Shown here piece after piece: positions 3,008 through 3,896 of a stretch of DNA of 64,000 nt (its first letter is position 1; every line of letters starts with the position of its first letter). Below the pieces are notes generated by a model. That model saw only the letters and a list, made by a program, of their open reading frames with translations, was not told the DNA's origin and searched no databases. This DNA is from a bacterium (GTDB taxonomy: Bacteria; Campylobacterota; Campylobacteria; Campylobacterales; Sulfurimonadaceae). The stretch lies in contig JAHJEG010000049.1 in the NCBI GenBank assembly GCA_018825665.1, forward strand, positions 1 through 64,000. The letters are read 5' to 3'. The position numbers and the translations under genes are program-made.

Positions 3008-3667
3008 TTAATCTACATCACCAAATCTGCTGACAACCCTGCCGATTACTTCTATCTCATTGGGATTGAGTGTCTGTGTCGAATATACTTTGTTATCGGA
3101 TATTATATCGATTTTTCCATCTATTCTTTTTTGAACCCTTTTTATAAAAAGGCCGGCATCAGTTCTTATAGTAAATATCCCGCCTCTTTGCAAGTCAGTT
3201 TTGGCTCTGTTGATAAAAACAATATCGTTATAACTAAAAGTAGGCTCCATGGAATCACCGGAGACGTTGATTGCTTCAATATTCTTAAGCTCTTTTTCAC
3301 CACCGAGCATATTTACAAACTGTTCTGGAATCTCAAGCTGTTCTATCGCTTCACATGCAGTGTCAGAGCCACCTCCTGCAGATGCATTGACCCCGCCAAA
3401 ATACTTTACCATATAAAATTTGTTTGTGGCTTCAACCAAACTCTCCGGAGACTGACCGTAGAGTATCCAGTTTATAGAGATTGATTTTTTTGCACAAAAA
3501 TCCAAAAGCTCTCCGAATGGGATCTTATCTCTTTTTTTCATAGTGGCAAAATTCATTTGGCTTATTCCCAATATATCCGCTATGTCTTTATCAAAAATCT
3601 TTCTACCGGCATAATCAGAAGATACTATACTTTTAATCTCTTCTACAATTTCTGCAAAACTGTTCAT
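3008..3667 (-). CDS. S24-family (LexA/CI-like) transcriptional repressor
   Basis: N-terminal HTH (DIADILGISQMNFATMKKRDKIPFGELLDFC), Ala-Gly site (NASAGGG), catalytic SGDSMEPT and FIKRVQ lysine. Confidence 0.85.
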   Translation of the reverse strand: MNSFAEIVEEIKSIVSSDYAGRKIFDKDIADILGISQMNFATMKKRDKIPFGELLDFCAKKSISINWILYGQSPESLVEATNKFYMVKYFGGVNASAGGGSDTACEAIEQLEIPEQFVNMLGGEKELKNIEAINVSGDSMEPTFSYNDIVFINRAKTDLQRGGIFTIRTDAGLFIKRVQKRIDGKIDIISDNKVYSTQTLNPNEIEVIGRVVSRFGDVD

Positions 3668-3688
3668 CTCAAACTCCTCTTTTTGAAA

Positions 3689-3717
3689 ATTATAATACTA
3701 TTTTGCAATAAAGTCAA
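3689..3717 (-). promoter_or_regulatory. Sigma70-type promoter of the S24 repressor gene
   Basis: Minus strand TTGACT - 17 nt - TATAAT; TTGCAA lies inside the spacer (3703-3708). Confidence 0.75.
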
Positions 3718-3805
3718 AACTTTAATGACAAATTGCAATATTTTTTCAAGTATATTAATTTTATATGTAATATTTATACAATTAATCTTGCAAAAAGGAT
3801 AAAAA

Positions 3806-3889
3806 ATGTCGATTGTTATTAAAAATGCAGAGAGCTTGTTTAAAAGATTTGAGAACAATGTTGAAAAGTGGGCAAATAAAATCTTTTGA
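3806..3889 (+). CDS. Putative 27-aa amphipathic peptide (MSIVIKNAESLFKRFENNVEKWANKIF), divergent from the S24 repressor
   Basis: ATG preceded by aaaaaggat RBS; hydrophobic residues spaced i,i+3/4 throughout; not in supplied ORF track because of length. Confidence 0.45.
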   Translation: MSIVIKNAESLFKRFENNVEKWANKIF

Positions 3890-3896
3890 TTTGCCC
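3871..3896 (+). terminator. Inverted repeat GGGCAAAT..ATTTGCCC at the end of the 27-aa ORF
   Basis: 8-bp perfect stem around the stop codon; no strong T-tract. Confidence 0.4.

Follow-up and report, generated by a model that had tools for sequence, protein, structure and literature searches.

Within a 64,000-nucleotide stretch from a Sulfurimonadaceae bacterium (assembly GCA_018825665.1, contig JAHJEG010000049.1, positions 1 to 64,000; hereafter the window), the gene of an S24 repressor of the autocleavable type lies head to head with a micro-ORF encoding 27 amino acids. Our analysis indicates that the S24 protein most likely fulfils the role of LexA as SOS master repressor, with a DNA-binding domain of the phage-CI type, and that the micro-ORF is a real, previously unannotated gene whose product is probably an SOS-induced microprotein, made when DNA is damaged. 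From the conserved features described below we infer that the S24 protein would bind operators of the type TGnCA-N3-TGnCA and repress its own gene, the divergent peptide gene, recA and repair genes. Damaged DNA would give rise to RecA filaments, these would trigger self-cleavage of the repressor at Ala97-Gly98 (by way of Ser139 and Lys176), and with the release of the regulon the amphipathic peptide would be made. The peptide may then act as the effector of a checkpoint, slowing growth or division, with its helix probably docked on a membrane or on a protein of division or replication. We regard the model as a whole (LexA-equivalent repressor, regulon and damage-released checkpoint peptide) as probable. 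The growth or division checkpoint is its least certain part, a tentative first choice that we hold at less than even confidence. The initial annotation of this DNA had described a possible regulated module, which is supported in part, and had missed the apparent LexA-equivalent control of many DNA-repair genes.

Both genes occupy the positions and strands first assigned to them (Table 1), and the Ala-Gly site and Ser/Lys dyad claimed for the repressor were recovered as Ala97-Gly98, Ser139 and Lys176. Across 150 of 150 aligned relatives S96-A97-G98, G137-D-S139 and K176 are invariant. The protein contains the Pfam domains Peptidase_S24 (4e-19) and Phage_CI_repr, the latter a helix-turn-helix (HTH). 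A PDB search using the single sequence returned no match and a profile was required; the profile search reaches LexA structures, and the core aligns with LexA 1jhf. The AlphaFold model (pLDDT 82.8, pTM 0.56) matches a lambda-186 hybrid repressor, phage 186 CI, LexA and RecA-bound LexA, with modest TM-scores over the whole chain (about 0.45) and values of about 0.7-0.8, by target length, for the C-terminal domain. Identity as a LexA orthologue was rejected. The repressor scores 25.9 bits against a LexA family cut-off of 110.95, the LexA winged-helix DNA-binding domain is not among its matches, and none of the proteins in the 60 genomes searched exceeds the cut-off. Nor does the protein correspond to UmuD, which has no HTH domain; one is present here, and the umuC-like gene of the source genome lies on another contig. 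A role in phage defence or as phage cargo was likewise set aside, with no match in PADLOC and a PHROGs match for the repressor only and none for the peptide.

The repressor can be compared with two known groups. Like the LexA/SOS systems of E. coli, B. subtilis and others, it has an S24 self-cleavage domain in which Ala-Gly, Ser and Lys are present, and its predicted targets include recA, recN, recG, radA, a translesion polymerase and the repressor gene itself; it differs from them in its phage CI-type DNA-binding domain and in its operator. With the CI repressors of phages 186 and lambda it shares the combination of HTH and S24 domains, and in structure comparisons the lambda-186 hybrid and the phage 186 repressor came closest. 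Unlike those repressors, it is encoded on the chromosome in a conserved neighbourhood and is predicted to control recA and repair genes.

Alignment of 68 intergenic regions revealed three conserved blocks. One comprises the -10 and -35 elements of the repressor, in agreement with the sigma70 promoter previously called on the minus strand. Another contains the putative -10 region of the peptide gene (TGTAATATT) together with AAAGGA, the ribosome-binding site that had been suspected. The third lies between the other two and reads GTCAA...TGnCA...TGnnAT. We interpret this middle block as two putative 13-bp dyads of the TGnCA-N3-TGnCA type, centred at 3710 and 3732. Their spacing of 22 bp amounts to about two helical turns and they overlap both promoters, such that occupation of both dyads would cover both promoters. 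The stretch 3703-3746 is the best match in the genome to our operator model, of which it is itself a part. The proposed regulatory link between the two genes is strengthened, as the micro-ORF shares its operator region with the autocleavable-type repressor. In two genomes (G042 and G055) the repressor's own operator is TTTCA-N3-TGAAA, and recA (in G042 the polymerase as well) carries close variants. This joint change of operator and repressor counts in favour of the proposed control by the S24 protein.

The regulon was predicted in seven Sulfurimonas genomes with the operator-region sequence model, which scored the first 150 candidates of each, and in five with a consensus pattern; it was read from the model matches and their surrounding stretches. 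Genes beside operator matches include recA, recG, radA/sms, recN, comM/yifB, an integron integrase and a Y-family polymerase. Three further kinds were identified by eye: a gene divergent from rpsF, a small protein of zinc-finger-like type and ORF6N-like proteins. A match beside rmuC occurred in a single case (G031). NCBIfam supplied the names recG, sms, recN, YifB, DNA polymerase IV-like, RmuC and NAD kinase, several of these matches falling below the curated cut-off in truncated or divergent sequences, while the integron integrase reached 378 bits against a cut-off of 265. The recA gene was recognized from its sequence and from a search that returned roughly a single copy in each genome. In the source genome the model matches (E<=0.05) its own locus and seven other places, five of which precede recA, recG, comM/yifB, the Y-family polymerase and nadK-recN; the motif of dyad 2 recurs upstream of each of these. 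If 3% of genes are repair genes, the chance of five in seven is about 1e-6. The recA dyad is present in 28 of 28 readable Sulfurimonas promoters, located between -77 and -81 relative to the start codon, and the Y-polymerase carries the operator in most genomes examined. Among 20 genomes from outside Sulfurimonas the model matched at recA in three. All three have S24 orthologues; the 11 relatives without a close S24 orthologue gave no match at recA. Predicted operators before the repressor gene itself, recA and repair genes are what would be expected of an SOS master repressor, and the link to DNA damage suggested at the outset gains a whole predicted SOS regulon, recA included. It could be argued that the S24 protein regulates its own locus only, like the CI of a domesticated prophage, and that the regulon matches are chance AT-rich palindromes; its N-terminal domain is of the phage CI type, and AT-rich genomes yield many weak matches. 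The nearly fixed distance of the recA operator, the enrichment before repair genes, which is repeated across genomes, and the rarity of the consensus pattern when read backwards in the source genome (5 matches against 22 forward) make this highly improbable.

Among the predicted targets, integron integrases at L248 (G011:C1:1125337), L206 (G005:C2:78922) and L188 (G032:1459383) have an operator about 150 bp upstream. This placement suggests SOS control of integrons in Sulfurimonas, and an integrase under such predicted control in Campylobacterota would be relevant to gene shuffling under stress. An HTH-only relative of the repressor, about 70-90 aa and common in Sulfurimonas, was found with an operator close upstream at L252 (G011:C1:1740747) and at G030:C19:4210. 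In the source genome a P-loop protein, by eye similar to zeta-toxin-type kinases, lies downstream of a strong operator match (L190, G000:C46:1444).

Conservation of the peptide beside S24 genes, which the initial annotation had proposed as a check, was then evaluated. A peptide search of the 60 genomes gave matches adjoining the S24 gene in 32 of the 36 other genomes of the genus (one weak, E = 0.36) and no convincing sequence match outside Sulfurimonas. Upstream sequence of at least 319 bp was available for 74 of 80 Sulfurimonas S24 loci. In 67 of these 74 the peptide is encoded divergently within 420 bp of S24, with a length of 27 aa in 65 loci and 25 aa in two (L089, L129). Pooled pN/pS is 0.41 and entropy is highest at third positions, the signature of a peptide under purifying selection. 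Glutamate E16 occurs in every one of the 66 distinct 27-aa sequences, that of the window included, and K6, E20 and K25 are conserved charged residues as well.

At least five families of Campylobacterales have related peptides of 21-34 aa in this slot divergent from S24. In the Sulfurospirillaceae (29 of 30 loci, one truncated) and family f7 (20 of 22) the peptides measure 23-34 aa, and others were found in families f9 and f10 and in other genera of f1. The C-terminal amphipathic pattern of the window peptide is common to peptides of four other families. In a gapless C-terminal alignment of 23 peptides, positions -1, -2, -6, -9, -13, -17 and -20 are hydrophobic in all 23, position -16 is hydrophobic in 22, and position -12 is E or D in 21; eight such pattern columns were observed, and 5000 shuffles gave at most one. 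The peptides were chosen by slot and ribosome-binding site and not by the C-terminal pattern, and non-fitting f6 peptides were set aside. In that family (L389, L391, L392, L393, L394) the slot adjacent to S24 holds a different ORF type of 35-48 aa without the pattern. Families f4, f16 and f18 have umuC in the slot, and S24 orthologues on Sulfurospirillum plasmids are also head to head with umuC. These arrangements recall UmuD-UmuC and S24-umuC pairs; in Sulfurimonas, by contrast, the umuC-like gene is elsewhere and shares only the operator. At one locus (L396, genome G151) the peptide ORF overlaps an ATG-started frame running into umuC, resembling a peptide-umuC operon.

The peptide had been called amphipathic and possibly toxin-like or membrane-active. 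Its hydrophobic residues do fall on one helical face (hydrophobic moment 0.69, shuffle p = 0.002). The net charge of about +2, however, is not conserved (genus mean -0.2, range -3 to +3), and a cationic lytic peptide was rejected on that ground. Mean hydrophobicity is low (0.17 over the best 18-residue window), and together with the conserved charges this indicates that the 27 residues do not form a single transmembrane segment. The toxin-like and membrane-active labels are not supported. A rival reading makes the peptide a TisB-like toxin that would depolarise the membrane under the control of an SOS repressor and bring dormancy instead of a division block. TisB and SidA are likewise small peptides (27-29 aa) under SOS-type control, and both are hydrophobic membrane peptides. 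In size (29 aa for TisB; PMC11449926), in SOS-type control and in amphipathic pattern the peptide resembles TisB. The peptide here is nevertheless charged, with a genus net charge near zero, and lacks the hydrophobic membrane-spanning character of a type I toxin; the predicted leader of about 25 nt would leave little room for an istR-type RNA antitoxin. We consider a toxin of this kind distinctly unlikely.

Position offers a different guide to function. SOS division inhibitors are encoded divergently from lexA in B. subtilis, S. aureus, M. tuberculosis and C. glutamicum (PMC6851548). YneA, SosA, DivS and ChiZ are likewise small genes divergent from the SOS repressor with a common operator region (PMC6851548), and by this analogy the peptide resembles YneA and SosA, which we count in favour of the checkpoint. 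A regulatory role, with the peptide binding to RecA or to the S24 repressor so as to modulate cleavage or return the response to its resting state, seems unlikely to us, though somewhat less so than the toxin. The peptide and repressor genes are constantly paired over families, and the conserved C-terminal end ([IVL][FL]-COOH) and the helix face would suit docking to a protein. The pairing could, however, be explained by the shared operator alone, and in the families with umuC in the slot the repressor works without a peptide.

Several observations weigh against our model. The known division inhibitors are longer and membrane-spanning, unlike the peptides here, which are short (21-34 aa), have no transmembrane stretch and bear no demonstrated sequence similarity to them. 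In G001 the peptide lies about 410 bp from the S24 gene, a few Sulfurimonas loci have no recognisable peptide, and some operator matches precede genes without an obvious repair role. Sequence supports the reality and conservation of the peptide gene, the operator, the regulon, the catalytic residues and the fold; operator binding, RecA-triggered cleavage and induction by damage are deduced from these.

Epsilonproteobacteria including Campylobacter and Helicobacter have been described as lacking LexA (PMC2390758), and H. pylori as apparently without an SOS response (PMC2912397). In the open-licence literature we found neither an account of SOS in Sulfurimonas or Sulfurospirillum nor one of an S24-peptide system. 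Environmental relatives of Campylobacter and Helicobacter appear to have an SOS response run by a different repressor, and the analysis provides a regulon that can be tested, together with an operator and a new family of microproteins. In the boldest form of the proposal, a lineage thought to be without SOS would have a complete SOS regulon controlled by a phage-CI-type repressor that it recruited. The most tightly linked output of this regulon would be a new and widespread family of microproteins, whose soluble amphipathic helix would act on a target in division, replication or regulation in a way that differs from SulA, YneA and TisB. We place this proposal just short of an even chance.

Table 1. 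Coordinates of the repressor-peptide locus in the window.
Feature	Position	Strand	Basis
S24/CI-type autocleavable-type repressor, 219 aa, predicted SOS master repressor	3008..3667	-	Pfam, invariant residues, fold
Repressor promoter TTGACT-17-TATAAT (TTGACT 3717-3712, 17 bp, TATAAT 3694-3689)	3689..3717	-	Sequence; hardly any variation in the ATTATA and GTCAA blocks across the 68 intergenic regions aligned
Putative operator dyad 1, TGCAATAAAGTCA	3704..3716		Overlaps repressor -35; conserved block in 68 loci
Putative operator dyad 2, TGACAAATTGCAA, then ATATTTTTT	3726..3738		Conserved block in 68 loci
Putative -10 box of the peptide gene, TAATAT within TGTAATATT	3768..3773	+	T, A and A-T positions nearly invariant in 68 loci
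Ribosome-binding site AAAGGA	3794..3799	+	Shortly before ATG in nearly all of 68 loci
27-aa microprotein MSIVIKNAESLFKRFENNVEKWANKIF	3806..3889	+	Conserved place and length, pN/pS, shared C-terminal pattern

Two minor elements of the locus had also been pointed out. The hairpin across the peptide stop codon is real in the source genome (3869-3897, 9-bp, -12.3 kcal/mol); relatives do not keep it, and its role as a conserved terminator was rejected. The TTGCAA copies noted at 3703, 3733 and 3788 are all present. TTGCAA was rejected as the operator, since it is not enriched in the window (39 observed, 40.5 expected) and conservation does not extend to the copy at 3788; the other two copies are parts of the conserved 13-bp dyads.
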